Assembly: GCF_014174155.1 (NCBI RefSeq)
Contig: NZ_JABEQM010000003.1
Location: forward strand, 62,001-126,000
From: Gluconacetobacter tumulisoli
GTDB lineage: Bacteria > Pseudomonadota > Alphaproteobacteria > Acetobacterales > Acetobacteraceae
Length of the DNA: 64,000 nucleotides
Direction of reading: 5' to 3'
Shown here: positions 16,581-52,598 of the stretch, piece by piece
Layout: every line of letters starts with the position of its first letter
Numbering within the stretch: position 1 is the stretch's first letter
The notes under the pieces: model-generated
Seen by the model: only the letters and a program-made list of their open reading frames with translations
The model's database searches: none
What the model was told of the DNA's origin: nothing
Made by a program: the position numbers and the translations under genes

Positions 16581-16585
16581 ACGCG

Positions 16586-19171: not shown

Positions 19172-19368
19172 GGCCCCCAGCGGTGGTGATCGGTGCGATC
19201 GGTTCCGGCACCGCCCACGTCATACGAGGACCCGCGACCCCGTGCGGGGCGGTCCGACCCTGTAGAAAGTCAGGTTCGCGGCATCCAGAAAAGGGTGGAC
19301 GACGATCGTCATTGCGTGGATGTTCGGTCCGGCTTCGCCCATTGGGGCGGCAGGATGACGGGGTAGGC

Positions 19369-19782: not shown

Positions 19783-19799
19783 TTCCGGTCTGACAGTCC

Positions 19800-19831
19800 C
19801 GGGGCCGGTCATTCGCATATGACCGGGCCCG
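19800..19831. terminator. Stable hairpin upstream of copA
   Basis: A 13-bp stem with one mismatch (CGGGGCCGGTCAT / ATGACCGGGCCCG) and a 6-base loop lies between the His/Met-rich gene and copA. It is followed by GTCGTTTCTG, only mildly T-rich. It could be a weak terminator or a processing site that changes the ratio of the two genes. The copA ATG is 27 bp further on. Confidence 0.45.
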
Positions 19832-19858
19832 TCGTTTCTGCTTGGTGGTACAAAATCA

Positions 19859-37315: not shown

Positions 37316-37323
37316 GTGGACGG

Positions 37324-37905: not shown

Positions 37906-37933
37906 GCCTCCATGACAGGAAAAGCGGGACATG

Positions 37934-37982
37934 ATATGCGAGGATTGGCTCGCAAATGGATAATTGAGGATGTCCTCGCAAA
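37934..37982. promoter_or_regulatory. Tandem operator-like repeats between isochorismatase-like and TetR genes
   Basis: Two related 17-mers lie 26 bp apart: GAGGATTGGCTCGCAAA (37940-37956) and GAGGATGTCCTCGCAAA (37966-37982), differing at three positions. The first is part of an inverted repeat TGCGAG-N6-CTCGCA (37937-37954), extended by AT on both sides. The second contains GAGGA-TG-TCCTC. The second copy covers the TetR ATG at 37970. This is the expected layout for autorepression by the adjacent TetR protein. Confidence 0.6.
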
Positions 37983-38605
37983 AGGCAACATCGCCGATGA
38001 TATCGGCCGAACCGGTCGCGCCCAAACGCCCGCGCGGGCGGATGCGGGTTGCGGCCATCCTGGAGGCGGCGTCCGATTTGTTCCACGACAAGGGGTTCGA
38101 CGGCACGACGATGACCGAGATCGCCGCGCGGTCCGGCACCGCCATCGGTTCGCTGTATCGTTTCTTCCCCACCAAGGAGGTCCTGGCCGATGCGCTGCTG
38201 GGCGATTATTTCGCGCGGCTGAACGAACGGCTGGACCGGATCGCGGCCATGGCCGGGCAGATGGAGCCGGACGGGCTGGCCGATGCACTGATCGACATGG
38301 CTTTGGAGTTGCAGGCGGAACGCGCGGCGGCCGTAATCCTGGTGGAGGCCCGGCGCGACGGCCCCTATCGCCGTGGATTCCTGCGGGATTTCATCCGGGG
38401 CCGGATTGCCGGGATCCTGTGCTCGGCGATGCCGGAGCTGCCGCCGGACCGTGCGGCGACCGTCGCGACGCTGCTTCAGCATCTGCTGAAGACGGTCCCG
38501 GCCCTGACGGAGGAGGAGCGGACCACCGGCGCGCCGCTGCTGGCCGAACTACGTAGGGCGGCGCGGCTGTATGTCCGGGACGCCGGGCGCTGGGTGCCTG
38601 TTTGA
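37970..38605 (+). CDS. TetR family transcriptional regulator
   Basis: 211 residues from ATG 37970 (TTG 37964 is possible). The helix-turn-helix is ILEAASDLFHDKGFDGTTMTEIAARSG followed by GSLYRFFPTKEVLADALL (key GTTMTEIAARSG and SLYRFFPTKE). The C-terminal ligand domain is unlike those of known members. It likely represses itself and the divergent isochorismatase-like and AbrB genes through the repeats at its start. Inducer unknown. Confidence 0.9.
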   Translation: MSSQKATSPMISAEPVAPKRPRGRMRVAAILEAASDLFHDKGFDGTTMTEIAARSGTAIGSLYRFFPTKEVLADALLGDYFARLNERLDRIAAMAGQMEPDGLADALIDMALELQAERAAAVILVEARRDGPYRRGFLRDFIRGRIAGILCSAMPELPPDRAATVATLLQHLLKTVPALTEEERTTGAPLLAELRRAARLYVRDAGRWVPV

Positions 38606-38690: not shown

Positions 38691-38822
38691 TCAGGGCGTC
38701 AGGCCGACGGCCGCCATGACCAGGTGCATGGCGCCGGCGAAGACCCCCATGGTGGCCACGCCGGCCAGCCACAGGGCGACCATCCATCCAAGCTGGGTGC
38801 GGGGCCGGAAGGGAATGCGCAT
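38691..38822 (-). CDS. DUF2474 small subunit of the bd-type oxidase
   Basis: 43 residues with one membrane segment (LGWMVALWLAGVATMGVFAGAMHLVM, key LGWMVALW). The size, the RTQLGWMVALW start and the place directly after cydB match DUF2474 proteins, the small partner of cyanide-insensitive oxidases, comparable to CydX. Its ATG overlaps the cydB stop (ATGA), so it is translated with it. The longer open frame to 38996 is a shadow inside cydB. Confidence 0.85.
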   Translation of the reverse strand: MRIPFRPRTQLGWMVALWLAGVATMGVFAGAMHLVMAAVGLTP

Positions 38823-39835
38823 CAATGATATCCTTCCCCGTGACGGACCTTGCCGCGGAACACGTAATAGGCCCAGGCGGTGTAGATCAGGATGAACGGA
38901 ATCACGAACAGCGCACCGACCAGCGCGAAGCCCATGCTTTCGGGGGGCGCCGCCGCATCGCGCAGCGTCAGCGCCGGCGGGATGATATTCGGCCAAAGGC
39001 TGATCCCCAGCCCGACATAGCCGAGCAGCATCAGGCCCAGCGACATCAGGAACGGCACGGTGTGATTGCCGCGTGCGTTGCCAAGGCTGCGCAGCAGTAC
39101 GGCGGCGATCGCGATGACCAGCACCGGCACCACGGCCAGGATCGCCATGTTCGGCATGGTGAACCAGCGGTCGGCGATGGCCTGGTGCAACAGGGGCGTC
39201 CAGATGCTGACGATGGCGATGCAGGCCAGAAGGGCCAGTGTCAGCGGTTTCGCCAAGGCCCGCATCCGGTCATGGAGCGCCCCCTCGGTCTTGAACATCA
39301 GCCATGTCGCGCCCAGCAGCGCATAGGCCGCGAGCAGGGCCATGCCGGTGAACAGGCTGAAGGGTGACACCCAGTCGAAGGCGCCCCCGTCGTAGGATGG
39401 CCCGGTGACGTGCAGGCCGTTGATCAACCCGCCCAGTACCCAGCCCTGGCAGAGGGTGGCCAGGATCGACCCGCCGGCGAACGCCTTGTCCCAGAAGGGA
39501 CGATGGGCCTCGTCGGCCTTGAAGCGGAATTCGAAGGCGACACCGCGGAAGATCAGGCCGCCCAGCATCAGCAGCAGCGGAATGTAGAAGGCGCTGAGCA
39601 CGACGGAATAGACCAGCGGAAACGCCGCCATCAATCCGGCGCCCCCCAGCGCCAGCCAGGTCTCGTTCCCGTCCCATACGGGGGCGATGGTGTTGATCAT
39701 CGTGTCCCGTTCCGTCCGGTCGGGGATGAAGGGGAACAGCAGGCCGATGCCCAGGTCGAAGCCGTCCATCACGACATACATCAGCACCCCGAAGGCAATG
39801 ATGATCGCCCAGACCAGCGGAAGATCGATACCCAT
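38822..39835 (-). CDS. cioB: Cytochrome bd-type ubiquinol oxidase subunit II (cyanide-insensitive type)
   Basis: 337 residues, nine membrane segments expected. It starts GIDLPLVWAIIIAFGVLMYVVMDGFDLGIG (key YVVMDGFDLGIG), with WDGNETWLALGGAGLMAAFP near residue 55, both hallmarks of CydB/CioB. It pairs with subunit I to oxidise quinol and reduce oxygen without proton pumping. ATG 39835 is the family start; the longer frame is not supported. 25 bp after cioA and overlapping the DUF2474 gene. Confidence 0.95.
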   Translation of the reverse strand: MGIDLPLVWAIIIAFGVLMYVVMDGFDLGIGLLFPFIPDRTERDTMINTIAPVWDGNETWLALGGAGLMAAFPLVYSVVLSAFYIPLLLMLGGLIFRGVAFEFRFKADEAHRPFWDKAFAGGSILATLCQGWVLGGLINGLHVTGPSYDGGAFDWVSPFSLFTGMALLAAYALLGATWLMFKTEGALHDRMRALAKPLTLALLACIAIVSIWTPLLHQAIADRWFTMPNMAILAVVPVLVIAIAAVLLRSLGNARGNHTVPFLMSLGLMLLGYVGLGISLWPNIIPPALTLRDAAAPPESMGFALVGALFVIPFILIYTAWAYYVFRGKVRHGEGYH

Positions 39836-39860
39836 GACTCTGGTTCCTTGGGGCTGAAGG

Positions 39861-41258
39861 TTACAGGTCGCCAAGATTCGGCGCGGCGGACATCGGGCGG
39901 GCAGGGCGCTCGTCGGGGCGCAGGTCGTGGTCGTGGCTGGGAACGGCTTCGGGCGGCTTGGCGGCCAGGCGCAGCATGTACAGGACGCCGGTGCCGAAGA
40001 TGCACACATACAGCACGACGAAGGTCAGCAGCGACGCCGTCAGCACCGGGACCGAATGGTTCGACACCGCGTCGCGGGTCCGCAGCACGCCATAGACGAC
40101 CCAGGGCTGGCGGCCGATTTCGGTGGTGAGCCAGCCGGCCAGGATGGCGATCAGCCCCGCCGGCCCCATGACCAGCGCGAAGGTCAGCAGCGGCCGGAAA
40201 TCGTACAGCCGCCCGCGCCACCGCGCGAACGCCGCGGCCACGCCCAGCAGCAGCATCGCGATGCCCAGCCCGACCATGACGCGGAACGTCCAGAAGATGA
40301 TGGTGGAGTTGGGGCGATCCTCGGCCGGGAAATCCTTCAGGGCCGGAATCCTGCCGTTCCAGGAATGGGTCAGGATCAGGCTGCCCACATGCGGCACGGC
40401 GATCTGGTAGCGGGTTTTTTCGGCCGCCATGTCCGGCAGGCCGAACAGGATCAGCGGTACCTGGTCCTCGTCATTGTCCCAATGGCCTTCGATGGCCGCG
40501 ATCTTGGCGGGCTGGTGTTCCAGCGTGTTCAGCCCATGCTGGTCGCCGGCCTCGATCTGGATCGGGGCGACGATCAGGATCATCCACATCGCCATGGACA
40601 TCATACGCTTGACGGCGGGCGTGCGTTCGCCGCGCAGCAGGTGCCACGCCGCCGTGGCGCCGACGAACAGCGCCGTCGCCAGGAAGGCGGCCAGCACCAT
40701 ATGCGTGAAGCGGTAGGGCACCGAGGGGTTGAAGAGGATCTGCAGCCAGTCGACCGGGATCACCCGCCCATCGACGATCCTGTATCCTACCGGCGTCTGC
40801 ATCCAGCTGTTCGACACCAGGATCCAGGTGGCGGAAATCAGCGTGCCCAGCGCGACCATGACGGTGGCAAACAGATGCAGTCCCTTGCCCACCTTGTCCC
40901 AGCCGAACAGGGCCACACCCAGGAACCCTGCCTCGAGGAAGAAGGCCGTCAGGACTTCGTAGGTCAGCAGGGGGCCGGTCACGGTGCCCGCCCGGGCTGA
41001 AAAATAGCTCCAGTTCGTGCCGAATTCGTAGGCCATCACCAGGCCGGACACCACGCCCATGGCGAAATTGACCGCGAAGATCTGCGACCAGTAGCGGCAG
41101 AGCTGAAGATAGACCGGGTCCTTTTTCCACAGCCACAGCGCCTCGAGAAACGTCATGTAGCTGGCCAGGCCGATGGTGATGGCCGGAAAGATGATGTGGA
41201 AGGAAACCGTGAAGCCGAACTGGATGCGCGCCAGTTCCAATGCGCTCAGGCCGAACAT
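39861..41258 (-). CDS. cioA: Cytochrome bd-type ubiquinol oxidase subunit I (cyanide-insensitive type)
   Basis: 465 residues. Haem b595 ligand His21 in FHIIFPAITIG; the GRQPW quinol motif (IGRQPWVVYGVLRT) near residue 375; SATWILVSNSWMQTPVG near 145. The protein is clearly shorter than E. coli CydA (about 520 residues), so it has the short Q-loop typical of CioA. In acetic acid bacteria such oxidases are known for low cyanide sensitivity. A strong AAGGAGG site precedes ATG 41258. It is divergent from the MocR gene, sharing a 368-bp regulatory gap. Cyanide insensitivity is inferred from family, not shown by sequence. Confidence 0.93.
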   Translation of the reverse strand: MFGLSALELARIQFGFTVSFHIIFPAITIGLASYMTFLEALWLWKKDPVYLQLCRYWSQIFAVNFAMGVVSGLVMAYEFGTNWSYFSARAGTVTGPLLTYEVLTAFFLEAGFLGVALFGWDKVGKGLHLFATVMVALGTLISATWILVSNSWMQTPVGYRIVDGRVIPVDWLQILFNPSVPYRFTHMVLAAFLATALFVGATAAWHLLRGERTPAVKRMMSMAMWMILIVAPIQIEAGDQHGLNTLEHQPAKIAAIEGHWDNDEDQVPLILFGLPDMAAEKTRYQIAVPHVGSLILTHSWNGRIPALKDFPAEDRPNSTIIFWTFRVMVGLGIAMLLLGVAAAFARWRGRLYDFRPLLTFALVMGPAGLIAILAGWLTTEIGRQPWVVYGVLRTRDAVSNHSVPVLTASLLTFVVLYVCIFGTGVLYMLRLAAKPPEAVPSHDHDLRPDERPARPMSAAPNLGDL

Positions 41259-41323
41259 GATGGGTGCCTCCTTGCCGCGGGCCGGATGTCGAGATGGCGT
41301 GCCAGGCAATGCCGGAACAATAT

Positions 41324-41372
41324 CCATACAAAATAAAAACAATGAACCCATATGTCCGCAAAATGTATGGGT
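41324..41372. promoter_or_regulatory. Repeated CCATACA/TGTATGG boxes in the cioA-mocR gap
   Basis: The 368-bp gap 41259-41626 holds CCATACA (41324-41330), CCATATG (41348-41354) and TGTATGG (41364-41370), with a perfect inverted repeat ACCCATA...TATGGGT at 41346-41372. The surroundings are AT-rich, unlike the rest of the window, and lie 66-114 bp before the cioA start. A further TGTATGG at 41568-41574 lies 53 bp before the mocR start. No gene is seen in the gap. These are candidate binding sites of the adjacent MocR regulator. Confidence 0.55.
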
Positions 41373-41567
41373 CAAGAGGGGGCGTGCGAACCCCCGTCGC
41401 CTGGGTGGAACGTGGCGGAACCACGGAGGATGCCTCGCCGGACGCGGATTTCCCATATCGCCGCCCGGATAAGGACAGCTGCGGCGCAGGGACCCGGCAG
41501 GCAGATACCGTCCGACATGGACGGGTTGTGTGCAGGGTATGGCTGGATTGGGCGGAAGCGGGTTAAT

Positions 41568-41574
41568 TGTATGG
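41568..41574 (+). promoter_or_regulatory. TGTATGG box before mocR
   Basis: A single copy of the motif that also occurs before cioA and before the Nit1C operon. Its distance of 53 bp from the ATG suits autoregulation. It is a lone 7-mer, so by itself weak evidence. Confidence 0.35.
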
Positions 41575-41626
41575 ATATGTTGACGAATTGTCAGTATCAC
41601 GACCGTGCAACAGACCCGAGAACCGA

Positions 41627-43027
41627 ATGTCCGCCGCTGACCTGATGCCTGGCTGGAAGCAGTATATCGACCGCAATGCCGGCCCCCTCTACCTGTCGAT
41701 CGTCGAGGCGCTGGCGGACTCCATCCGCCGGGACGAAATCCACGAGGGCGACCGGCTGCCGCCGCAGCGGGCCGTGGCCAAGGCGCTGGGCACGGACCTT
41801 ACGACCGTCACGCGCGCCTTCGCCGAGGCCCGGCGGCGCGGCCTGATCGAGGCGACGGTCGGGCGGGGGACGTTCGTGCGCGTCGGCGCGACCGAGACGC
41901 GCTGGCGCAATGCCGGACGCGCAGTGGTCGACCTGACCATGAACCTGCCGCCGATCCCCGAGAACCCGTCGCTGCAACAACTGATCCAGAACGATATCAG
42001 CCGCATTCTGCGCCGGCAGGATCTGCACGCCCTGCTGTCCTACCGCGTGACCGGCGGCACCAGCGAGGAACGGCAACTGGGCGCCGGCTGGATGAAGCCG
42101 ATGCTGGGCGCGCGCCCGGCGGACGAGATCCTGGTGGTGCCCGGGGCGCAGAGCGCGATGAGCGCCGTGGTCTCGACCCTGGCGGCACCGGGCGACGTGA
42201 TCGTGACCGATCGCTTCACCTATCCCGGCATCCGCACGCTGGCGGCCCAGTTCGGGCTGCTGCTGGCGGGGGTGGACAGCGACCGGGAGGGGATGGTGCC
42301 AGACCTGCTGGACCGGGCCTGCCGCCAGCATCGGCCGCGCATGATCTACTGCACGCCCACCATCCAGAACCCGACCACCGCCACCATGTCGCTGGTGCGG
42401 CGCGAGGCCATCCTGGCGGTTGCGAAGGCCCATAACGTCCAGATCCTGGAGGACGACCCCTACAGCCTGCTGCTGGATCAGCCGCCGCCGGCGCTGGCGG
42501 CGCTGGACCCGTCGCGTGTCTTCTACGTCTCGACCCTGGCGAAGGTGCTGTCGCCTGGCCTGCGGCTGGCGTTCCTGGTCGCCCCGCAGGACGCGGTCCA
42601 GCGTATGAGTTCGGCAGTCCGGGCGATTTCCCTGACCTGTTCGGGCCTGATGACCAGCCTGGTCGCGCGCTGGATGCAGGACGGCCAGGCCCAGGCGATC
42701 GTGCAGGCCATCCGCACGGAGTTGCGCCTGCGCCAGGCGGCGGCGCGTGCGATCCTGGGCGACGGGCACTGCATGCACCCCGACGGCCCGCATGTCTGGC
42801 TGAAGCTGCCGGACTGGTGGGGCAGCGTGGATTTCGTGTCCTACGCGCGTCGCCAGGGGCTGGGGCTGGTGCCCAGCACCGTCTTCACCGTCGAGGGCGA
42901 ACCTGCGCAACGCGTGCGGATCGCGCTGGGCAGCGCCCCGACCCTCGACAGTCTGGAGGCGTCGCTGCATGGCGTCGTCTCGGTGCTGCAGCACAAGCGC
43001 TCGCCGGGCTACACCGATATCGTCTGA
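41627..43027 (+). CDS. MocR-type regulator (GntR HTH fused to PLP aminotransferase domain)
   Basis: 466 residues. Residues 15-85 are a GntR winged helix (LYLSIVEALADSIRRDEI, GDRLPPQRAVAKALGTD, TTVTRAFAEARRRGLI). Residues about 105-450 are a fold-type I aminotransferase domain with Asn/Pro in QNPTTATMS, Asp277 in EDDPYS and the PLP lysine Lys306 in VSTLAKVLSPGLR. Such proteins sense an amine or PLP form and switch the neighbouring operon. Placed between cioAB and the Nit1C genes, it is the only regulator of the region. ATG 41627 is chosen over the open frame to 41567 because the HTH starts directly after it. Confidence 0.93.
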   Translation: MSAADLMPGWKQYIDRNAGPLYLSIVEALADSIRRDEIHEGDRLPPQRAVAKALGTDLTTVTRAFAEARRRGLIEATVGRGTFVRVGATETRWRNAGRAVVDLTMNLPPIPENPSLQQLIQNDISRILRRQDLHALLSYRVTGGTSEERQLGAGWMKPMLGARPADEILVVPGAQSAMSAVVSTLAAPGDVIVTDRFTYPGIRTLAAQFGLLLAGVDSDREGMVPDLLDRACRQHRPRMIYCTPTIQNPTTATMSLVRREAILAVAKAHNVQILEDDPYSLLLDQPPPALAALDPSRVFYVSTLAKVLSPGLRLAFLVAPQDAVQRMSSAVRAISLTCSGLMTSLVARWMQDGQAQAIVQAIRTELRLRQAAARAILGDGHCMHPDGPHVWLKLPDWWGSVDFVSYARRQGLGLVPSTVFTVEGEPAQRVRIALGSAPTLDSLEASLHGVVSVLQHKRSPGYTDIV

Positions 43028-43220
43028 CCGGCCTGCTTCAGGGCTGTTCGGCCCGGTCTGTTCGCCCATGCACCGACAATATGGACATTATTCGTTTTTT
43101 CGCGTCGGCGAAAAACATCCGCGTTTTCGGTGGTTTGGGGGGATGCTGTCGGCATTGCATGGGGGCGGCCGAAGAAATGTCGGGGGATGAATGGCGGTGT
43201 TCCGCCCGGCATGGGAAAAT

Positions 43221-43281
43221 TGTATGGTTTTGTATGCAGTTTCGTCCGGATACGACTCTTGAGGATTGTCGTGATTGTATG
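43221..43281 (+). promoter_or_regulatory. TGTATGG direct repeats upstream of the Nit1C operon
   Basis: In the 319-bp gap after mocR, TGTATGG (43221-43227) is followed one helical turn later by TGTATGC (43231-43237), and TGTATG recurs at 43276-43281. The spacing of 10 bp suits a dimer bound to one face of DNA. The Nit1C operon starts 66-126 bp downstream. I saw no gene in 43028-43346 and no clear sigma-54 promoter, unlike the nit1C operon of Pseudomonas with its sigma-54 activator. Confidence 0.5.
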
Positions 43282-43346
43282 TCACGACTCCTCCTGTCAG
43301 TTCATACGGTCACGGCCCGGTGCCGTGCCCTGGCAGGAGAATCCCG

Positions 43347-43829
43347 ATGCCCAAGGTCGAACATGCCCCGCACAAGAACGGTGACGTCTTCGTCGATTAC
43401 GAAAACAAGGTCTTCGAGGACGTAAAGGCCCAGCCGGGCGAGAAGGCACTGGTCACCTTTCATACCGTCGCGTTCGAAGGCTCGATCGGCTTCGTCAACC
43501 TGTTGCAGGCGACGCGCCTGATCCGCAAGGGGTTCGACACGTCGGTGCTGTTGTATGGTCCCGGCGTGACGCTAGGCGTGCAGCGCGGCTTTCCCCGGCT
43601 GGGGGACGAGGCCTTTCCCGGCCATATGAACGCCAACCGACAGATCGTGAAGATCCTTGAAGAAGGCGGCAAGGTCTATGCCTGCCGCTTTGCCCTGCAG
43701 GCGCTGTACGGCCATGGCGAGCAGTCGCTGATCCCGGGCATCACGCCGATCAACCCGCAGGACGTGCTGGACCTTATCCTGCTGGCGCGGCGGGACAACG
43801 CCTTCATCCTCGATACCTGGACGGTCTGA
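43347..43829 (+). CDS. nitB: MSMEG_0572 family nitrogen starvation response protein
   Basis: 160 residues. The pattern [40 protein letters not shown] (key [11 protein letters not shown] and [10 protein letters not shown]), then [20 protein letters not shown] and a C-terminal [13 protein letters not shown], matches the first protein of Nit1C clusters. The fold looks DsrE-like. Function unknown. A good AGGAGA site precedes ATG 43347. It leads the nitrilase operon, 22 bp before the nitrilase. Confidence 0.92.
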
Positions 43830-43851
43830 ACCTGGGGCGCGGGAGGGGACG

Positions 43852-44829
43852 ATGAACCGCATGATCCGGGCGGCGGCGGCGCAGATCGCCCCCGTCTTCG
43901 ACGAGACGGGGCTGGGCACCGCCGAGAAAATCTGCCGCACCATCGCGGACGCCGCACGGCAGGGCGTGCAGATCATCGTCTTTCCCGAAACCATCGTGCC
44001 GTACTATCCCTATTTCTCGTTCATCCGTCCGGCGTTCCGGATGGGGGCGGAGCACCTGGCGCTGTACGACCGCGCGGTCGTCGTGCCCGGCCCGGTGACC
44101 GAGATGGTGGGCGCCGCGGCACGGGCGGCCGGGATGGTCGTCGTGCTGGGCGTCAACGAACGCGATTGCGGCACGCTGTACAACACGCAGCTGGTCTTCG
44201 ACGCGACGGGCGAGCTGATCCTGAAACGGCGCAAGATCACGCCGACCTATCACGAACGCATGGTCTGGGGGCAAGGCGACGGCGCCGGCCTGAAGGTGGT
44301 GGACAGTGCCGCCGGACGGATCGGTGCGCTGGCCTGCTGGGAGCATTACAACCCGCTGGCCCGCTACGCGCTGATGACCCAGCATGAGGAAATCCATTGC
44401 GCGCAGTTTCCCGGATCGCTGGTGGGACAGGTCTTCGCCGACCAGATGGAGGTGACGATCCGACATCATGCGCTGGAATCGGGATGTTTCGTCATCAATG
44501 CGACGGGGTGGCTGTCCGACGGGCAGATTTCTGACATCGCCGGCGACCCGGCGCTGGAAGGCCCGCTGCGCGGCGGCTGCTTCACCGCGATCGTCTCGCC
44601 GGAAGGAAAATTGCTGGCGGAACCCCTGTGCGAGGGCGAAGGACTGGTGCTGGCCGACCTCGATTTCGGCCTGATCACCAAGCGCAAGCGGATGATGGAT
44701 TCGGTCGGTCATTACGCGCGTCCCGAATTGTTGAGCCTGCTGCACGACCGCCGTCCGGCGCGGACGGTCCAGTACCGGGACGACCCGCCCGAGGCGGTGG
44801 AACCCGACAGTCTTCACGACAGGACATAA
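43852..44829 (+). CDS. nitC: Nit1-type nitrilase of the Nit1C cluster
   Basis: 325 residues. The Glu-Lys-Cys triad is complete: Glu46 in [13 protein letters not shown], Lys128 in [15 protein letters not shown] and Cys162 in [15 protein letters not shown]. It hydrolyses a nitrile to carboxylate and ammonia. The homologue NitC in Pseudomonas pseudoalcaligenes CECT5344 is required for growth on cyanide, where it acts on hydroxynitriles made when cyanide reacts with 2-oxoacids. GGGAGGGGAC precedes the ATG. All following genes are 3-4 bp apart or overlapping. Confidence 0.95.
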
Positions 44830-44833
44830 GACG

Positions 44834-45943
44834 ATGCCGATCCCCGCCGCCGCGCCGACGGACAGCCGCCGGTTGATCACCGACCTTCAATCGCTGGGTC
44901 TGCAATTCGCCGGCAGCGGCGACGCCGTCGTCCGCAAGGGGGGCGCCGGTCCGTCGGACCACAGGGCGGTGACAATCGCCGGCCAGACCGTCATGGTGCC
45001 GATCTACACGATGGGTGCGCGTCGCTCGCCCTTCCTGGCCGATCCGCCCGACGCGCGGGGGGCGAGCGTGTTGCGGCACGAGGGCCGGCCGGTCGGCACT
45101 ATCCGCTTTCCGACGCCGCCGCGTTTCTATGGCCTGCAGACGGCGGACGGCATTCCCTATTGGAAAATTGCCTTGTTGCACGGGCGGGATACGCTGGCGA
45201 CCACGGTGCACCAGACCTGCATCCGCTATGCCGACCGGCGCACGTCGTGCCAGTTCTGCGCCATCGGCCAGTCGCTGGAGGCCGGCCGTACCATTGCCTA
45301 CAAGACGCCGCAGCACCTGGCCGAGGTCGCACGCGCGGCCGTCGAACTGGACGGCGTGCGGGACATGGTGCTGACGACCGGCACGCCCAACGCGGTCGAT
45401 CGCGGTGCCGCGGTCCTGGCGGACAGTACGGCGGCGATCAGGGCGGCGGTTGACCTGCCCATTCAGGTGCAATGCGAACCACCGCGCGACCATGCCTGGT
45501 TTGCCCGCCTGCGCGCGGCCGGGGCCGCCAGCCTGGGCATGCATCTGGAAGCCGCGACCCAGGACGTGCGGGCGCGGATCATGCCGGGCAAGGCGACCGT
45601 CAGCGTCGATCGTTACATGGACGCCTTCGCCGAGGCCGTGCCGGTCTTCGGACGCGGGCAGGTGAACACCTACATCCTCGCCGGGCTGGGCGACACGGCG
45701 GAGCAGATCCTGGCGCTGGCCGAACGGCTGATCGCGCTTGGCGTCTATCCGTTCGTCGTTCCGTTCGTGCCGATTTCCGGCACCCCGCTGGAACATCACC
45801 CGGCGCCGACGCCGGATTTCATGCGCGCGGTGCTGGCCCCGCTGGGCCGCATGCTGCGCGCCGCGGACATGCGGTCTTCCGCGATCAAGGCGGGGTGCGG
45901 CCGATGCGGCGCCTGTTCCTCGCTGTCCGCCTACGAGGATTGA
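44834..45943 (+). CDS. nitD: MSMEG_0568 family radical SAM protein
   Basis: 369 residues. The cluster-binding cysteines appear as Cys129, Cys139 and Cys142, that is CX9CX2C rather than the common CX3CX2C. GTIRFPTPPRFYGLQT before and TTGTPN, QCEPP and GLGDT after them are typical of the family. At the extreme C-terminus Cys355, Cys358 and Cys361 (CGRCGACSS) could hold a second cluster. The reaction is unknown; the family is restricted to Nit1C clusters. Starts 4 bp after the nitrilase stop. Confidence 0.92.
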   Translation: MPIPAAAPTDSRRLITDLQSLGLQFAGSGDAVVRKGGAGPSDHRAVTIAGQTVMVPIYTMGARRSPFLADPPDARGASVLRHEGRPVGTIRFPTPPRFYGLQTADGIPYWKIALLHGRDTLATTVHQTCIRYADRRTSCQFCAIGQSLEAGRTIAYKTPQHLAEVARAAVELDGVRDMVLTTGTPNAVDRGAAVLADSTAAIRAAVDLPIQVQCEPPRDHAWFARLRAAGAASLGMHLEAATQDVRARIMPGKATVSVDRYMDAFAEAVPVFGRGQVNTYILAGLGDTAEQILALAERLIALGVYPFVVPFVPISGTPLEHHPAPTPDFMRAVLAPLGRMLRAADMRSSAIKAGCGRCGACSSLSAYED

Positions 45944-45946
45944 GCG

Positions 45947-46504
45947 ATGGAAAGCGACCGGTTCGACGCCCCGCCTTTCGCGCCCAGCGAATATATCGTC
46001 CGGCTGGCGCGCACGCGCTGGGAGCGGGCGGGGCATTTCGCCCTGCGGCGGGCGGTCTTCTGCCAGGAACAGCGCGTCTTTGCGACCGACGATCGCGACG
46101 CGGTCGACGATGTCGCGATCCCCATCGTCGCCGCCTGCTGCGTCGCGGGCATGCCCGAACAGGTGGTGGGCGCGGTGCGGATCCATGAATCGGAACCGGG
46201 CTTGTGGCGCGGGTCGCGGCTGGCGGTGCATGCGGACCATCGGCGGCTGGGCCGCATCGGCGGCGAGCTGATCCGCATGGCCGTCTGCACCGCGCACGGG
46301 CTGGGCGCCACGCGCTTCCTGGCGCAGGTGCAGGCGCAGAACGTGCCGTTCTTCCGACGCCTGCACTGGCATAGCCTGGAGGAGATCGCCCTGCACGGCC
46401 TGCCGCACCATGTGATGGAGGCCGACCTGGCGCAGTACCTGCCCCATGGATGCGAGCAGACCTGGCTGCTGCGGCCGCAGCGCGCGGCGCGGAGGCGGGC
46501 ATGA
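45947..46504 (+). CDS. nitE: MSMEG_0567/sll0786 family N-acetyltransferase
   Basis: 185 residues. A GNAT fold is suggested by LRRAVFCQEQRVF (acceptor side), VVGAVRIHESEPGLWRGSRLAV and the acetyl-CoA loop HRRLGRIGGELIRMAV, then FLAQVQAQNVPFFRRLHWHSL. Fourth gene of the Nit1C operon. The acceptor is not known. It starts 3 bp after the radical SAM gene and its stop overlaps the next start. Confidence 0.92.
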   Translation: MESDRFDAPPFAPSEYIVRLARTRWERAGHFALRRAVFCQEQRVFATDDRDAVDDVAIPIVAACCVAGMPEQVVGAVRIHESEPGLWRGSRLAVHADHRRLGRIGGELIRMAVCTAHGLGATRFLAQVQAQNVPFFRRLHWHSLEEIALHGLPHHVMEADLAQYLPHGCEQTWLLRPQRAARRRA

Positions 46505-47475
46505 CGGTCCCCGACCTCGCGGCACTGGCCCGCCAGATCCGCGAGGGGCAGGCGCTGGCGGGCAAGCACGACATCGCCGGGGTCGTGGCACGCCTGGGGC
46601 TTCCCGCCGACGGGGCGCCGCGCCTTGGGGATGATTGCGCCGCCATTCCGGATGGCGACGGCTTCCTGCTGTTCGCCACCGAAGGGTTCCAGGACGGGTT
46701 CGTGCAGTCCATGCCCTGGTTCGCGGGCTATTGCGGCGTCATGGTCAATGCCGGCGACGTGGCGGCGATGGGCGGCCGGCCCATCGCCGTGGTCGACGCG
46801 CTGTGGAGCCGGGATGGCGACCAGGCGGCGCCGATCCTGCAAGGGCTGGCCGATGGCGCGCGCACCTACGGCATCCCGGTGCTGGGCGGGCATACCAATC
46901 TGCGCGCCGGCCAGCAGGCCCTGTCGGTCGCCATCCTGGGCCGTGCCCGCCGCCTGCTGACCAGCTTCGACGCCCGCCCCGGCGAGGTGCTGGTCGCGGC
47001 CATCGACCTGCGCGGCCGCTGGCACGATCCGCACCCGTTCTGGGATGCCAGTTCCGCGCTGTGCGGCACGGAGGCGGCCGGGCGCCTGCGCGGGGACCTG
47101 GATATCCTGCCCGGCATCGCCGAGGACGGGCTGAGCCGCGCCGCCAAGGATATCAGCATGGCCGGCCTGGTCGGCACGGCCCTGATGCTGGCCGAATGCT
47201 CGCGCATCGGCATCACCATAGACCTTGGCGTCCTTCCCGCGCCGCCGGGCGTGGACATGGGGCGGTGGCTGGCGGCTTTCCCCAGCTATGGTTTCCTGCT
47301 GACCGCGCGACCGGACGACGTGCCCGCCGTCCTGGCCCGCTTCGCCGCGCGCGGCATCGCGGCGTCGGCCATCGGCACCTGCCAGGACGGGACGCACCTC
47401 GACCTGATCCGGGACGGGGTGCGCGAGACGGTCTGGGACCTGGCGCATGCGCCCCTGATGGGATGCGCGCCATGA
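46501..47475 (+). CDS. nitF: sll0787 family AIR synthase-like protein
   Basis: 324 residues. The AIRS/PurM fold shows in LGDDCAAIPDGDGFLLFATEGF (ATP-binding side; key GDDCAAIPDGD), FAGYCGVMVNAGDVAAMGGRPIA (key NAGDVAAMGG), PVLGGHTNL and KDISMAGLVGTALML. Members resemble PurM, ThiL and SelD, which activate a carbonyl or acid with ATP. The substrate is unknown. ATG 46501 overlaps the acetyltransferase stop. A more upstream start lies within that gene. Confidence 0.92.
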   Translation: MTVPDLAALARQIREGQALAGKHDIAGVVARLGLPADGAPRLGDDCAAIPDGDGFLLFATEGFQDGFVQSMPWFAGYCGVMVNAGDVAAMGGRPIAVVDALWSRDGDQAAPILQGLADGARTYGIPVLGGHTNLRAGQQALSVAILGRARRLLTSFDARPGEVLVAAIDLRGRWHDPHPFWDASSALCGTEAAGRLRGDLDILPGIAEDGLSRAAKDISMAGLVGTALMLAECSRIGITIDLGVLPAPPGVDMGRWLAAFPSYGFLLTARPDDVPAVLARFAARGIAASAIGTCQDGTHLDLIRDGVRETVWDLAHAPLMGCAP

Positions 47476-48617
47476 CGCGGCGGATCGGCATCGTGGCGCA
47501 TTCCACCAATCCGCGCGGCGGCGTCGTGCATGCCATGCACCTGGCCGAGGCCCTGTGCGCGGCAGGCGACGATGTCACCCTGATCGCGCCGGACGTCGCG
47601 GGGAGCGGTTTTTTTCGCCAGCCTGCCTGCCCGGTGATCTGCATCCCCGCGCGGCCCGCGGCCGACGTCGCGTCGATGGTCGAACGGCGGATCGTCGAGA
47701 TCCGCGACGCCGTGCGGGGACTGCGGCTGGATATCGTCCACGCGCAGGATCCGATCGGCGCGAACGCGCTGGCCGACCTGGTCGCCGAGGGGGCGCTGCC
47801 GGGCTTCGTCCGGACGGTGCATCACCTGGACCGGTTCGACGATGCGCGCCTGGCGGCACGGCAGGACCGGGGTGTCCGCGCGGCGACGGAAGTACTGTGC
47901 GTCAGCGACATGTGGCGGGTCGCGCTGCGCGATCGCTATGGACGCGACGTCGAGGTCGTCGGCAATGGCGTCGATACCCGGCGGTACGCGTCCTATGCCG
48001 ATGGCCATGACGACGGAATCCGCCGCGCATTGGGGCTGGACGAGGACGCCGTCATCGTGCTGGCCGTGGGCGGGGTGGAGGCACGCAAGAACACCATCGC
48101 CCTGTTCGATGCCTGCCTGGCGTTGCGGAGCGACTGGCCGCGCCTGCATCTGGTGATCGCGGGTGGCGCGACGCTGCTGGACCATGGGGCCTATCGCGCC
48201 GCCTTCGACGCGCGGGTGCGGACCGCCGGCGGGGCCGGCTGGGTGACTCTGGCCGGAGTGATCGCCGACGATGCCATGCCGGCGCTGTACCGCGCAGCAC
48301 ATGTCCTGGCCTATCCGTCGGTGAGCGAAGGGTTCGGCCTCTGCCCGCTGGAAGCCCTGGCCTGCGGCATTCCCGTCGTGCTGCCGCGCCAGGCGCCGTT
48401 CAGCGAACATCTGCGGGCCGACGACGCCCTGTGGTGCGGCCCCGGCGACGCCGATGGCCTGCACGGGGCCATCGGCCGCGCGCTGGAGGCCGGAACGCGG
48501 CGGACGTTTCGCGCGCGGGGGCCGGAGATCGCCGGCCGCTTCACCTGGGCGACCGTCGCCGCCGCGCATCACCCCGCCTATGACCGCCTGTCCCGAAAGG
48601 CCGCCGTCGATGCCTGA
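47472..48617 (+). CDS. MSMEG_0565 family glycosyltransferase
   Basis: 381 residues, GT4 type with two Rossmann domains. The N-terminal GGVVHAMHLAEAL loop binds the acceptor side; VVGNGVDTRRY starts the second domain; SVSEGFGLCPLEALACG is the EX7E sugar-nucleotide motif. The presence of a glycosyltransferase suggests that the Nit1C pathway makes or handles a glycosylated product, not only ammonia. ATG 47472 overlaps the AIR-synthase-like stop, and the end overlaps the MSMEG_0570 gene. Confidence 0.92.
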   Translation: MTRRIGIVAHSTNPRGGVVHAMHLAEALCAAGDDVTLIAPDVAGSGFFRQPACPVICIPARPAADVASMVERRIVEIRDAVRGLRLDIVHAQDPIGANALADLVAEGALPGFVRTVHHLDRFDDARLAARQDRGVRAATEVLCVSDMWRVALRDRYGRDVEVVGNGVDTRRYASYADGHDDGIRRALGLDEDAVIVLAVGGVEARKNTIALFDACLALRSDWPRLHLVIAGGATLLDHGAYRAAFDARVRTAGGAGWVTLAGVIADDAMPALYRAAHVLAYPSVSEGFGLCPLEALACGIPVVLPRQAPFSEHLRADDALWCGPGDADGLHGAIGRALEAGTRRTFRARGPEIAGRFTWATVAAAHHPAYDRLSRKAAVDA

Positions 48618-48906
48618 AATGCTGTTTCACGTCCGATGGCCGGACGGTGCGGAAAGCCGGTGCTATTCGCCGTCGCTGGTCGTCGCCGACCATCTGGCGT
48701 GCGGGCAATCCTATCGCGTGCCGGACTTCCTGGCCCGCAGTCGTGCGGCCCTCACCGAGGCCAGCGCACGGGTGCAGGCCCGGTACGGTTTCCCCTGCAG
48801 CCGTGCGCTGGCGCAACTGGACGAGATCGAGCGCCGATGCGCCGCCTTCGCGGAGGCGCCCGGCGCGCGGATTCATGTCGTGGGATTCGATCAACATTCA
48901 TCCTGA
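48610..48906 (+). CDS. MSMEG_0570 family protein
   Basis: 98 residues. MLFHVRWPDGAESRCYSPSLVV and YRVPDFLARSRAALTEASARVQ are characteristic of this small, uncharacterised Nit1C family. Pattern: a short beta hairpin, then helices. The start lies in the last codons of the glycosyltransferase gene. Function unknown. Confidence 0.9.
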   Translation: MPEMLFHVRWPDGAESRCYSPSLVVADHLACGQSYRVPDFLARSRAALTEASARVQARYGFPCSRALAQLDEIERRCAAFAEAPGARIHVVGFDQHSS

Positions 48907-48923
48907 CAGCAGGAGACTCCATC

Positions 48924-50195
48924 ATGACAGAAACGAAATGCCCCGTGGTGATCGTGGGCGGCGGACAGGCGGGCCTGTCGCTCAGCTGGTATCTCTGCCG
49001 CCTGGACGTGGCCCATGTGGTGCTGGAGGCCAGGACCGCCTGCCATGCCTGGGAAGACGAACGCTGGGACAGTTTTTCGCTGGTGACGCCCAACTGGCAA
49101 TGCGACCTGCCGGGCCACCCCTACCGGGGTGACGATCCGCACGGCTTCATGGTCAAGCAGGAAATCGTGGAGTACGTGCAGGGCTTCGTGAAATCCTTCG
49201 ATCCGCCGCTGCGGTGCGGCGTGCGCGTGACCGACGTCAGCCGTGCGGACGGGGGCTATCGGGTGGAAACGACCGATGGCGTCTATGTGGCCGCGCACGT
49301 CGTGATCGCGACCGGCGCCTATGGCGAGGCGGTCATTCCCGGATATGCCAGCGCCATCGATCCGGCGATTACGCAAATACATTCCCAGGCCTATCGCAAT
49401 CCGCACGCCCTGCCCGAGGGCGCGGTGCTGGTCGTCGGCAGCGGGCAGTCGGGCGCGCAGATCGTCGAGGATCTGCATCTGGCGGGACGCAAGGTGCATC
49501 TGTGCGTCGGCAACGCGCCGCGGGTCTCGCGTTTCTATCGGGCGCGCGACGTGGTCGACTGGCTTGCCGACATGAAATTCTACGACCTCACCGTCGACCG
49601 GCATCCGTTGCGCGACGGGGCGCGGGACAAGACGAACCATTACGTCACCGGCCGCAATGGCGGCCACGATCTGGATCTGCGCCAGTTCGCCCTTGAAGGT
49701 GTCGACCTGCACGGCAGCCTGAAGAACATTCGTGACGATGTCGCATGTTTCGGAAACGACCTGGCTGAAAACCTGGACGACGCCGACCGGACCAATGCGA
49801 ACATCAAGGCGTCGATCGACGCCTATATCGCCCGCGAGGGCATCACGGCGCCGACGGAGGCGCCCTATGTGCCGGTCTGGACGCCGGACGGGGGAAATGC
49901 GTCGCTGGACCTGAAGGCGGCGGGCATCACCAGCATCATCTGGTGCATCGGCTTTCGGCCCGATTATCGCTGGATCGACGTGCCGGTGTTCAACGGGCGG
50001 GGGCAGCCGGTCTGGCATCGGGGCGAGACGGAACAGCCCGGCCTGGCGTTCCTGGGCCTGCCCTGGCAGCACACATGGGGATCGGCACGGTTTTCCGGCA
50101 TTTCCCGCGATGCGGCCTATCTGGCGGGCAGGATCGTCGGGCGTCCGGTGCCGGTCGCCGATGCGTCGTCGGCCCGCCTCGGGGCCCTGGTCTGA
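48924..50195 (+). CDS. nitH: MSMEG_0569 family flavin-dependent oxidoreductase
   Basis: 423 residues. FAD-binding VVIVGGGQAGLSLSWYL at the N-terminus and a second nucleotide motif VLVVGSGQSGAQI near residue 170 give the layout of a flavoprotein monooxygenase of the FMO/BVMO type. WCIGFRPDYRWID near the C-terminus is typical. It may oxidise the nitrile or its precursor. Preceded by AGGAGA. Last core Nit1C gene; after it a pair of hairpins and then an acyl-CoA synthetase gene. Confidence 0.93.
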   Translation: MTETKCPVVIVGGGQAGLSLSWYLCRLDVAHVVLEARTACHAWEDERWDSFSLVTPNWQCDLPGHPYRGDDPHGFMVKQEIVEYVQGFVKSFDPPLRCGVRVTDVSRADGGYRVETTDGVYVAAHVVIATGAYGEAVIPGYASAIDPAITQIHSQAYRNPHALPEGAVLVVGSGQSGAQIVEDLHLAGRKVHLCVGNAPRVSRFYRARDVVDWLADMKFYDLTVDRHPLRDGARDKTNHYVTGRNGGHDLDLRQFALEGVDLHGSLKNIRDDVACFGNDLAENLDDADRTNANIKASIDAYIAREGITAPTEAPYVPVWTPDGGNASLDLKAAGITSIIWCIGFRPDYRWIDVPVFNGRGQPVWHRGETEQPGLAFLGLPWQHTWGSARFSGISRDAAYLAGRIVGRPVPVADASSARLGALV

Positions 50196-50250
50196 AACCC
50201 GCCAGAGACCACCGGCCTCTGAAACCGATCTGTTGATCCATGATCGGGGT

Positions 50251-50288
50251 CCAGGGCCTCAGGCCCTGGCGGTTCGGGCGAAGCCCGA
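50251..50288. repeat. Two tandem hairpins, REP-like element
   Basis: CCAGGGCC-TCA-GGCCCTGG (50251-50269) and TCGGGC-GAA-GCCCGA (50274-50288) stand side by side in the 123-bp gap between the flavin oxidoreductase and the acyl-CoA synthetase gene. Tandem GC stems in an intergenic gap are typical of REP/BIME elements, which can damp transcription or protect the upstream mRNA. A related core (AGGGCC..GGCCCT) occurs at 52633-52658. Genome-wide copy number cannot be judged here. Confidence 0.55.
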
Positions 50289-50318
50289 TTGCTGGCGCAA
50301 CACGCATTGGAACCGATC

Positions 50319-52112
50319 ATGTTTCCCTGGACAACCCACCGCGACATGATGGCGGCGTATCGCGCCGATCCCGACGGGTTCTGGCTGTCGGCGGCGCGCA
50401 ATATCGCCTGGACGCGCCATCCCGAGGGAGCCGCCACGCGGCGCGCCGACGGATGGCATGACTGGTTCGCCGGCGGGTGGCTGAACAGCTGCTACAACGC
50501 TGTCGATCGCCATGTCGATGCCGGCCATGGGGACCGAGACGCCCTGATCTGGCATGGGGAGGCGGTCGGGGCGACTGAAACCCTGACCTATGCGACGCTG
50601 CGTGCACGGGTTGCGGGGTTCGCGGGCGGACTACGCGACCTGGGTGTCGGGAAAGGGGACCGTGTCCTGGTCTCCATGCCCAGCCTGCCCGAAACCGTGA
50701 TCGCCATGCTGGCCTGCGCCCGCCTGGGCGCCATCCATGTCGTCGTCTTCGGGGGCTATGCCGCGCGGGAACTGGCGGCGCGGATCGACGACACCACGCC
50801 CAAGGTCGTGATTTCCGCGACATGCGGGTTCCAGGGGCGAACCATGGTGCCCCACATGCCGTTGCTGGAGGAAGCCCTGGCGCTGGCGGCCCATCGTCCG
50901 TCGGCCTGCGTGGTTCTGCGGCGCCCGGCCTGTCCGGTCACGCTGCGGCCCGGTCGCGACCATGATTTCCACGCGCTGGAACATCACGCCCCGGCCGACC
51001 CGGTCGCGGTGCGGGCCGAGGATCCACTTTATATTCTGCATACCTCGGGTACGACCGGTTCGCCCAAGGGGGTCGTGCGCGACAATGGGGGTCATGCGGT
51101 GGCGCTGACCCTGTCGATGGAACTGATCTATGGCATGGCGCCAGGTCAGGTGTTCTTCACCACGTCCGACCTGGGCTGGGTGGTCGGGCATTCCTATGCG
51201 GTCTATGCGCCGCTGCTTGCCGGCTGCACCAGCCTGTTTGCCGAAGGACCGCTGGATGCGCGGACCATCCTGCCGCTCTGCGCCCGGCATCGCGTGCGGA
51301 TTCTGTTTACCACGCCGACCAGCCTACGCCTGATGCGTCGGCAGGCGGCCGACGGCCCGCTGTCCGGCGGCCCGGACCTGGCGGCGGTGTTCGTGGCGGG
51401 GGAACGGTCGGACCCGGACCTGCTGGCCTGGGCGGAGCAGGGCCTCGGCCGGCCGGTCCTGGACCATTGGTGGCAGACGGAAACGGGATGGAGCATCGCG
51501 GGGCCCTGTCTCGGCCTTCGGGACGCGGACCTGACCGCGCGGCCGGGACCGGGTTTCGACCTGCATGTCGGTGCCGCCGACGGGATGCCGGCGCGGGAAG
51601 GTGAATTTATGCTGCGCCTGCCCCTGCCGCCGGGATGCCTGTCGGGGATCTGGCGCGGCGGGGGGGCGTTTCCGGCACGGTACCTGGACCGCACCCGGCA
51701 ATTCTATCGGACGTTCGATGTCGGCGCGCTGGAAGTGGACGGTACGGTCCGGCTGACGGCGCGGGTGGACGACGTCATCAAGGTCGCCGGCCGGCGCATC
51801 GCCAGCGGCCAGTTGGAAGACGCGATCGCGGCCCATCCCATGGTGGGCGAATGCGCGGTGGTGGGGGTGCCCAGCGGGCTGCGGGGCGAAATTCCGGTGG
51901 CCTATGTCGTGCCCTCGGTCCCGGCCGCGACGGTTCCGGGGCTGGGTGCGGAATTGGTGGCCCTGGTGCGCCGGCAGGTCGGCCCGTTCACCGGTTTGCG
52001 GGACGTCGTCTTCGTCGACAGCCTGCCGCGCACGCGTTCTGGCAAGATCGTCCGCCGGGCGTTGCGCGACGGGCCGCCACGTGTCGAAGCCCGGGCCATC
52101 CACGCCCTGTAG
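50319..52112 (+). CDS. Acyl-CoA synthetase (propionyl-CoA/acetyl-CoA synthetase-like)
   Basis: 597 residues. ANL-family motifs are complete: ATP loop HTSGTTGSPKGVVRD near residue 245, DHWWQTETGWSIAGP near 390, and the C-terminal SLPRTRSGKIVRRAL with the adenylation lysine. The FGGYAARELAARIDD and WVVGHSYAVYAPL segments are close to PrpE-type enzymes, which activate propionate or other short acids. Placed right after Nit1C, it may activate the carboxylate made by the nitrilase. ATG 50319 has a weak ribosome site. TTG 50289 is an alternative that would run into the hairpin. Confidence 0.9.
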   Translation: MFPWTTHRDMMAAYRADPDGFWLSAARNIAWTRHPEGAATRRADGWHDWFAGGWLNSCYNAVDRHVDAGHGDRDALIWHGEAVGATETLTYATLRARVAGFAGGLRDLGVGKGDRVLVSMPSLPETVIAMLACARLGAIHVVVFGGYAARELAARIDDTTPKVVISATCGFQGRTMVPHMPLLEEALALAAHRPSACVVLRRPACPVTLRPGRDHDFHALEHHAPADPVAVRAEDPLYILHTSGTTGSPKGVVRDNGGHAVALTLSMELIYGMAPGQVFFTTSDLGWVVGHSYAVYAPLLAGCTSLFAEGPLDARTILPLCARHRVRILFTTPTSLRLMRRQAADGPLSGGPDLAAVFVAGERSDPDLLAWAEQGLGRPVLDHWWQTETGWSIAGPCLGLRDADLTARPGPGFDLHVGAADGMPAREGEFMLRLPLPPGCLSGIWRGGGAFPARYLDRTRQFYRTFDVGALEVDGTVRLTARVDDVIKVAGRRIASGQLEDAIAAHPMVGECAVVGVPSGLRGEIPVAYVVPSVPAATVPGLGAELVALVRRQVGPFTGLRDVVFVDSLPRTRSGKIVRRALRDGPPRVEARAIHAL

Positions 52113-52124
52113 GAGGAAGACCGC

Positions 52125-52598
52125 ATGTCCGAAACCCGTCTCCCCGTGCCGCCCTTTACGGCCGAGACCGCGATCCGCAAGGTGCGCGGCGCCGAGGATG
52201 GCTGGAACAGTTGCGACCCGCATCGCGTGTCGCTGGTCTACACGCCCGACAGTTTCTGGCGGAACCGGTCGGAATTCATCCAGGGCCGTTCGGCGATCAT
52301 CGCCTTCCTGACCCGTAAATGGCAGGCGGAACTGGAATATCGGCTGGTCAAGGAGCTTTGGGCCTTCACCGACAACCGGTTGGCCGTCCGCTTCGCCTAT
52401 GAATGGCATGATGCGGCCGGAAACTGGTTCCGGTCCTACGGCAACGAAAACTGGGAATTCGAGGCGAACGGACTGATGCGCCGGCGCTTCGCCTGCATCA
52501 ACGACCTGCCGATCCGCGACGACGAGCGCAAATTCTTCTGGGACCGCGCAGGGCCGCGTCCGGCCGATCATCCGGGCCTGTCGGACCTGGGACTGTAG
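52125..52598 (+). CDS. DUF1348/NTF2-like protein
   Basis: 157 residues. [44 protein letters not shown] (key [19 protein letters not shown]) and CINDLPI are the DUF1348 signature, a cone-shaped NTF2-like fold that often binds small hydrophobic compounds. Function unknown. A strong AGGAGGAAGA site and a 12-bp gap to the synthetase gene show that the two form a unit. It is the last plus-strand gene of the block. Confidence 0.92.

Follow-up and report, generated by a model that had tools for sequence, protein, structure and literature searches.

A candidate MocR operator common to a CIO-type bd oxidase and a Nit1C nitrilase cluster in Gluconacetobacter

A stretch of 64,000 nucleotides from Gluconacetobacter tumulisoli (G000:C3:62001-126000 in a source genome of 3.96 Mb; hereafter the window) carries genes for a bd-type quinol oxidase of the cyanide-insensitive oxidase (CIO) type, a divergently transcribed mocR regulator gene and, after the latter, a Nit1C nitrilase cluster. 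Judged by the MocR protein, the closest named relatives are G. azotocaptans and G. johannae (97% identity). The arrangement raises the question of whether the oxidase and the nitrilase cluster are controlled together, and to what end. Both halves, as well as the pairing of mocR with cioAB, are already known, and what is new is a candidate operator that joins a CIO-type oxidase and Nit1C. That a single operator is common to the two is probable and forms the strongest new point of this analysis.

An earlier note on this DNA had placed cioAB and a DUF2474 gene on the minus strand, a MocR regulator divergent from them, and eight Nit1C families in order after the regulator. All of this was borne out (Table 1), the oxidase proteins matching PF01654, PF02322 and PF10617 above the cut-offs. 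On alignment of CioA with E. coli bd-II (7ose), about 63 residues between 7ose positions 317 and 381 were unmatched, indicating a short Q-loop, and the GRQPW stretch was kept. A subunit I devoid of the long Q-loop extension and the presence of a DUF2474 small subunit are the features of the CIO-type bd subtype with DUF2474 (subtype C of PMC5322542). The oxidase is predicted to be cyanide-insensitive. A second bd oxidase subunit I is encoded on another contig of the source genome.

The Nit1C genes, all on the plus strand, encode matches to TIGR04044, 04048, 04043, 04045, 04049, 04047, 04042 and 04046, each above its curated cut-off, and it is this clustering of eight NCBIfam families in the expected order that defines the locus as Nit1C. 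NitC gave 485 bits with the solved nitrilase 3wuy, which we take to be Nit6803, and about 150 bits with cyanide dihydratases. Gaps among the eight genes range from -14 to +22 bp (two start codons were placed 3-6 bp differently in the gene coordinates and in the gap calculation). The mocR-nitB and cioA-mocR gaps are 319 and 368 bp, respectively; hence nitB and cioA can each have their own promoter. A scan of the window found 2 promoter-like sequences (mean 1.9 in shuffles) and 6 terminator-like ones (5.5 in shuffles), nothing beyond chance.

In MocR, residues 14-99 match an Rv1152-type transcription regulator, presumably of the GntR family, aminotransferase-like matches run from residue 83 on, and MocR-type models match over nearly the full length. 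This combination of an N-terminal GntR DNA-binding part with an aminotransferase-like part characterises the MocR subfamily. Identification as EhuR was rejected, since this best NCBIfam model (NF052286) gave 403.9 bits against a cut-off of 480.

In aligned intergenic regions ATTGTATGG was seen repeatedly, and it was taken as a candidate MocR operator before mocR and nitB. A matrix was derived from 86 distinct training sites, each of which had to hold TTGTATG, with window-type loci (arranged like the window) excluded; the seed of the motif had first been spotted by eye in alignments that included the window and is not independent of it. When both strands of the window were scanned, the five best matches all lay before mocR, cioA and nitB, and the next best scored 12.8. 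The cioA-side site has its core, TTGTATGG, at positions 41324-41331, at a distance of some 66 bp from the start codon of cioA. The pattern WTTGTATGGWWWT, chosen after the sites had been seen, has three occurrences in 3.96 Mb, all of them at the three promoters and none elsewhere, and the reversed control gave 0.

TTGTATG was present in 58/60 related mocR upstreams and 52/54 related nitB upstreams, counts that each contain four window-type rows, while single-base shuffles averaged 1.3 and 1.7. With the window-type rows removed and near copies merged, the numbers were 48/50 and 45/47. The cioA-side site was also found in G. azotocaptans, G. johannae and the genome G277 (scores 19.2, 19.2 and 20.2), and it was missing from three Gluconacetobacter cioA orthologues of 71-75% identity that are not linked to Nit1C (-1.4, -1.4 and 6.3). 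Among 55 distinct cioA upstreams scored, the 4 of window type all reached at least 19.2; the best of the other 51 had 13.3, 11.5, 11.5 and 8.2, all from a downstream layout in which cioA follows a ligase-like gene at the 3' end of Nit1C. A site more than 200 bp from mocR occurred in 4/4 linked and 1/49 unlinked mocR upstreams, so that the cioA-side site is not a usual second mocR site. Within window-type loci, hits scoring at least 14 numbered 4.49 per kb in the target regions and 0.013 per kb elsewhere. Beyond the acetic acid bacteria of the family, further matches were found before cioA in Aminobacter (21.6) and before mocR in Roseomonas gilardii (20.6), and Methylocystis has one of 17.8 in the cioA upstream gap and another, upstream of nitC, of 15.9. 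Direct repeats at one fixed spacing were also considered for the operator and rejected: offset 22 (30 hits among nitB upstreams) and offsets 34 and 15 (38 and 16 hits among mocR upstreams) define no single spacing.

That cioAB and Nit1C share an operator-like motif argues, from sequence, for their common control, which is well supported at this level. Gene content, its recurrence, the motif itself, and the occurrence of the motif at linked cioA genes and not at the three unlinked orthologues are all shown by the sequence.

Recurrence was assessed in 299 genomes of the Acetobacteraceae, 33 of which encode a nitrilase above the family cut-off; stretches of up to 20 kb were examined round all 33. 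A mocR homologue was present in 33/33 loci, adjoining nitB in 32 and on the opposite strand in 7. Divergence of cioA from mocR was seen in two (the window genome and G123), and a wider stretch of G277 showed the cioA-mocR pair, nitB being set apart from mocR by about 6 kb. The ligase-like gene, a frequent 3' neighbour of the flavin gene where acetic acid bacteria carry Nit1C, is followed by cioA in four more of the 33, one of them cut by a contig end. In the genus Gluconacetobacter, NitC is encoded in 12/14 genomes, and cioA stands next to mocR in four of these 12 (the window genome, G123, G1029 and, with an insert, G277). Searched for across the family, the cioA-mocR-nitB adjacency is therefore not confined to one genome: three Gluconacetobacter genomes, including that of the window, have it directly and in a fourth it is split by the insert.

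A named collection of 48 loci with a close MocR, some shortened by contig ends, included two divergent cases (G. azotocaptans and G. johannae), which are not additional to those of the genus survey, and five downstream layouts, in A. tropicalis, K. swingsii, N. cocois, K. melaceti and N. maltaceti, each seen as a partial cioA at the stretch end. Query coverage of at least 80% was reached by 25 records, and seven of these, all acetic-acid-bacterial plasmids, were read. Five of them (from K. nataicola, A. oryzoeni, K. medellinensis, K. europaeus and K. saccharivorans), all typed conjugative, have annotated cioA-cioB-DUF2474 genes after the ligase-like gene. The A. ascendens plasmid has a broken cioA at this position and another cioA about 4 kb beyond the ligase-like gene. 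On the A. pasteurianus plasmid the stretch holds an insertion sequence and is devoid of cioA. The downstream layout, which is other than that of the window, is thus present in Komagataeibacter, Novacetimonas and Acetobacter. Terminator-like sites in the L003 stretch with the ligase-like gene and the cioA start numbered 0, as compared with 1.5 expected.

Outside the family, 27 loci from class (11) and phylum (16) samples were inspected, two of which hold only a nitC-like gene. A mocR homologue lies opposite nitB in 24 of the 27; MocR adjoining Nit1C is hence ordinary. In a rearranged order, a Methylocystis iwaonis plasmid combines cioAB-DUF2474 and mocR with six annotated Nit1C families, all inside some 18 kb. 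On a further plasmid record, from Methylorubrum extorquens AM1, which gives no gene table there, tblastn located one after another Nit1C, mocR, a nitrilase-like gene, cioAB and a second mocR. The sister of AM1 MocR is the MocR of G793, and in the genus of the latter Nit1C was found in 58/111 genomes.

A tree of 43 CioA rows (short search, with support from the Shimodaira-Hasegawa-like approximate likelihood ratio test only) placed the window CioA in a 14-row clade (100) composed of Gluconacetobacter copies and seven CioAs from two Roseomonas, Aminobacter, Agrobacterium T29, R. rhizogenes K84, G102 and Methylocystis. All seven are encoded beside mocR or nitrilase genes, which distinguishes this clade within the CIO-type subtype; top-ranking plasmid hits supplied six of the seven, and the sample is uneven. 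CioAs of the downstream layout group in a different clade (100), together with ordinary copies from Gluconacetobacter, among them the second copy of the source genome, and AM1 CioA is located elsewhere (97) on a long branch. Judged from this tree, the CioA lineage recruited in the divergent layout is not that of the downstream layout, which argues that the pairing arose more than once. For Methylocystis, which shares the clade of the window CioA, only its layout argues for a separate event.

The Nit1C MocRs of acetic acid bacteria came out as one clade in trees of 50 and 39 MocR rows (98; 100/99). A further branch (98; 100/98) has on one side this clade with five MocRs encoded beside cioAB and six beside neither cluster, and on the other side the usual Nit1C MocRs of other proteobacteria plus the MocRs of AM1 and Methylocystis. 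The window MocR thus belongs to another branch than the usual Nit1C MocRs, and its clade has as closest neighbour a Roseomonas mucosa MocR adjoining cioAB (91/89). We read this as a putative regulator swap from a MocR lineage with some members serving cioAB, in trees whose root was not inferred, whose rows were thinned, and whose cio-side rows were unevenly sampled, the cio-associated MocRs having mostly been found via CioA hits. MocR relatives beside cioAB with no Nit1C in the stretch occur in Roseomonas (two records), Aminobacter and Agrobacterium T29, the last having a nitrilase gene between the MocR relative and cioAB.

The cio cluster of P. pseudoalcaligenes CECT5344 has mocR directly upstream in divergent orientation and is induced by cyanide, and its proteins are reported to be constitutive in a mocR mutant, the last result being given as unpublished data (PMC8567248). 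As compared by layout, the window has the same divergent mocR next to cioAB. The CECT5344 cio cluster (mocR, cioAB, nit4) holds the nitrilase Nit4, whereas the window has the Nit1C set, and nit1C of CECT5344 is a separate locus. NitC is essential for cyanide assimilation in CECT5344, and both CECT5344 and NCIMB 11764 are named among strains with a nitrilase shown to be necessary for this process; the same source states that database homologues of the cioAB-nit4 cluster were not found (PMC11049912). The Nit1C genes of the window belong to the same families, in the same order, as those described by Podar and others (2005) and in CECT5344, with a glycosyltransferase insertion as in two betaproteobacteria (PMC1199592). 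That study reports no conserved upstream binding site and no conservation outside the cluster, whereas the window shows an operator-like motif and cioAB recurs. No report of cioAB beside Nit1C was found in the literature as covered by titles, abstract starts and passages, subscription papers and preprints being outside this scope.

We consider it fairly likely that one MocR regulon joins cyanide-resistant respiration with NitC-dependent use of cyanide or nitriles. MocR would bind ATTGTATGG-type sites at three promoters, before cioAB-DUF2474, its own gene and the nit operon. By analogy with CECT5344, it would most likely repress both arms until cyanide, or a compound derived from it, lifts the repression. 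Upon induction, the bd-type quinol oxidase would sustain respiration while cyanide blocks haem-copper oxidases, and among the Nit1C enzymes the nitrilase NitC would free ammonium from cyanohydrins formed with keto acids. The oxaloacetate for cyanohydrin formation could derive from malate:quinone oxidoreductase, the oxaloacetate source in the CECT5344 scheme, which is also present in the source genome. The product of the ligase-like gene, which scores under the cut-offs of ligase models, may, as a guess, activate the released acid.

Several observations weigh against a cyanide-responsive regulon of this kind. In CECT5344, 3-cyanoalanine fails to induce the cio cluster (PMC8567248), and nit1C is governed by a sigma-54 regulator, NitA. 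Linkage is a minority condition: 26 of the 33 family genomes show no cio and seven do (at least five of the unlinked stretches, L031, L050, L051, L055 and L061, end at contig ends), cioA was found in 0/27 class and phylum loci, and in the G793 genus 40 examined loci had cioA in three and cioB at the stretch edge in one more. The cioA upstreams of the downstream, plasmid-type layout score weakly, from 6.4 to 13.3, with no clear operator. AM1 has no match of at least 14 at cioA, G102 (L181), in which an Acetobacteraceae cioA stands beside mocR with no Nit1C in a short locus, has no site (best 2.6), and Agrobacterium T29 reaches 11.9 at best before mocR. At greater distance, hits of at least 14 are patchy. 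A target hit was found in 7/28 non-Acetobacteraceae Nit1C loci, 3/10 distant loci of the family, 3/4 cio-mocR loci and 1/2 non-family loci with cio and Nit1C, and in the cio-mocR group five hits fell outside the target windows and three inside. Nine MocR hits were fetched in their own right; one adjoins cioAB alone, one Nit1C alone, one both, and six neither, and 3/6 of these last have the motif, with target hits of at least 14, before mocR. The earlier proposal accordingly holds in part. That the two functions have been joined beside one regulator is supported by recurrent adjacency and the shared motif, cyanide or a nitrile as signal or substrate is presumed, and minority linkage and the want of a clear operator at plasmid-type and AM1 cioA genes weigh against the proposal.

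The same minority counts (7/33, 0/27 and 3 or 4/40) would be expected if a common oxidase and a common nitrilase cluster had come to lie side by side by chance and were regulated apart, as would the other eight of the 12 Nit1C-bearing Gluconacetobacter, in which cioA is on another contig or more than 1 Mb away. The existence of several layouts with different CioA lineages, and a motif found at linked cioA genes and missing from three unlinked orthologues, make such a coincidence very improbable.

More deserving of attention, although still rather unlikely, is co-regulation for a purpose other than cyanide, MocR sensing another amino compound or the nitrogen state, the bd oxidase acting as a general alternative oxidase against nitric oxide, sulfide, acid or low oxygen, and Nit1C performing other nitrile or nitrogen-starvation chemistry. 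It would accord with the protection that bd and CIO oxidases give against several respiratory poisons (PMC11837568, PMC10968556), with the NCBI names of several Nit1C families as nitrogen-starvation proteins, and with an ectoine-utilisation regulator being the nearest NCBIfam model of MocR. The cyanide role of both halves in CECT5344 speaks against it, as does the nitrilase gene between cioAB and the one MocR relative mentioned above.

Nit1C could, in a further scenario, build a nitrile or cyanogenic metabolite, which MocR would sense to turn on the oxidase as self-protection. We regard this as improbable. The radical SAM, GNAT, AIR-synthase-like, glycosyltransferase, flavin oxidoreductase and ligase-like proteins can in our view be read as a biosynthetic set, and cyanide-producing Pseudomonas aeruginosa uses its CIO against its own cyanide (PMC6825135); nitC is, however, essential for cyanide assimilation in CECT5344, and most Nit1C loci examined have no adjoining CIO. 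Were it true, a widespread family of cyanogenic clusters would be recognisable by the operator, by different oxidase lineages having been recruited time and again and by enzymes of biosynthetic appearance, and a minority of these clusters would have their immunity gene alongside.

If the preferred regulon for cyanide or nitrile use is correct, resistant respiration and cyanide assimilation, which in CECT5344 are encoded at separate loci with separate regulators, would have here a common regulator and, apparently, a common operator. The small acetic-acid-bacterial regulon lets the Nit1C function and the MocR signal be addressed directly, and the candidate operator can be used for finding further regulon members.

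Table 1. Genes and candidate operators of the cio-mocR-Nit1C locus (window coordinates).
Feature	Position	Strand	Evidence
DUF2474 small subunit of CIO-type oxidase	38691..38822	-	PF10617, 39.7 bits, above cut-off
cioB, bd-type quinol oxidase subunit II	38822..39835	-	PF02322, 336.7 bits, above cut-off
cioA, bd-type quinol oxidase subunit I	39861..41258	-	PF01654, 546.5 bits, above cut-off
Candidate MocR operator before cioA	41320..41335	-	matrix score 20.2, second best in window
Candidate MocR operator before mocR (core 41567-41574)	41563..41578	+	matrix score 22.1, best in window
mocR, MocR-type regulator	41627..43027	+	NCBIfam matches, trees
Three candidate MocR operators before nitB	43216..43286 (starts 43216, 43226, 43271)	+	matrix scores 20.1, 17.3, 16.3
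nitB, MSMEG_0572/Sll0783 family	43347..43829	+	TIGR04044, 276.1 bits, cut-off 109.85
nitC, Nit6803-family nitrilase	43852..44829	+	TIGR04048, 557.6 bits, cut-off 502.6; 3wuy, 485 bits
nitD, radical SAM protein	44834..45943	+	TIGR04043, 582.6 bits
nitE, GNAT acetyltransferase	45947..46504	+	TIGR04045, 234.7 bits
nitF, AIR-synthase-like protein	46501..47475	+	TIGR04049, 419 bits
Nit1C-cluster glycosyltransferase	47472..48617	+	TIGR04047, 420.8 bits
MSMEG_0570-family small protein	48610..48906	+	TIGR04042, 126.4 bits; start codon read
Nit1C-cluster flavin-dependent oxidoreductase	48924..50195	+	TIGR04046, 638.5 bits; start codon read
AMP-binding, acetate/propionate-CoA-ligase-like protein	50319..52112	+	PRK10524, 518.5 bits, below cut-off 955
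DUF1348 protein	52125..52598	+	PF07080, 218.2 bits

The DUF1348 gene adjoins Nit1C only in linked Gluconacetobacter (the window, G. johannae and G. azotocaptans) and is absent in G277. In two Gluconacetobacter stretches from genomes that lack NitC (L124 and L125), a DUF1348 gene with 70-71% identity lies about 1.7 kb upstream of an accessory cioA, as if DUF1348 accompanied this oxidase and not Nit1C. Genes for DUF983 proteins recur near MocR or cio genes in L208, L210, L215, L217, L220 and L224, in two of which (L217 and L220) neither cioAB nor Nit1C is near; that of L217 has motif matches in front.

In the A. oryzoeni stretch L004 (13849-15924) the AIR-like and glycosyltransferase genes align in two overlapping pieces and no gene is annotated, and some Nit1C genes of L133, L173 and L174 align likewise; some Nit1C clusters may thus be partly broken. 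A nitB homologue was found on 515 plasmid records, 374 of them from Klebsiella.

The G+C content varies from 0.63 to 0.73 across 30-60 kb of the window with no clear step and is uninformative on origin. Beyond the cio genes, on the same strand, positions 36227-38175 encode an AbrB-type protein (PF05145) and an isochorismatase-family protein; both genes are also found in G. azotocaptans (L121/L129) and were not found in the G. johannae stretch L130. A respiratory cluster at 8159-21637, with 4Fe-4S and NrfD-type proteins, a 722-residue COX1 protein and a multicopper oxidase, presumably resembles alternative complex III with a haem-copper oxidase.

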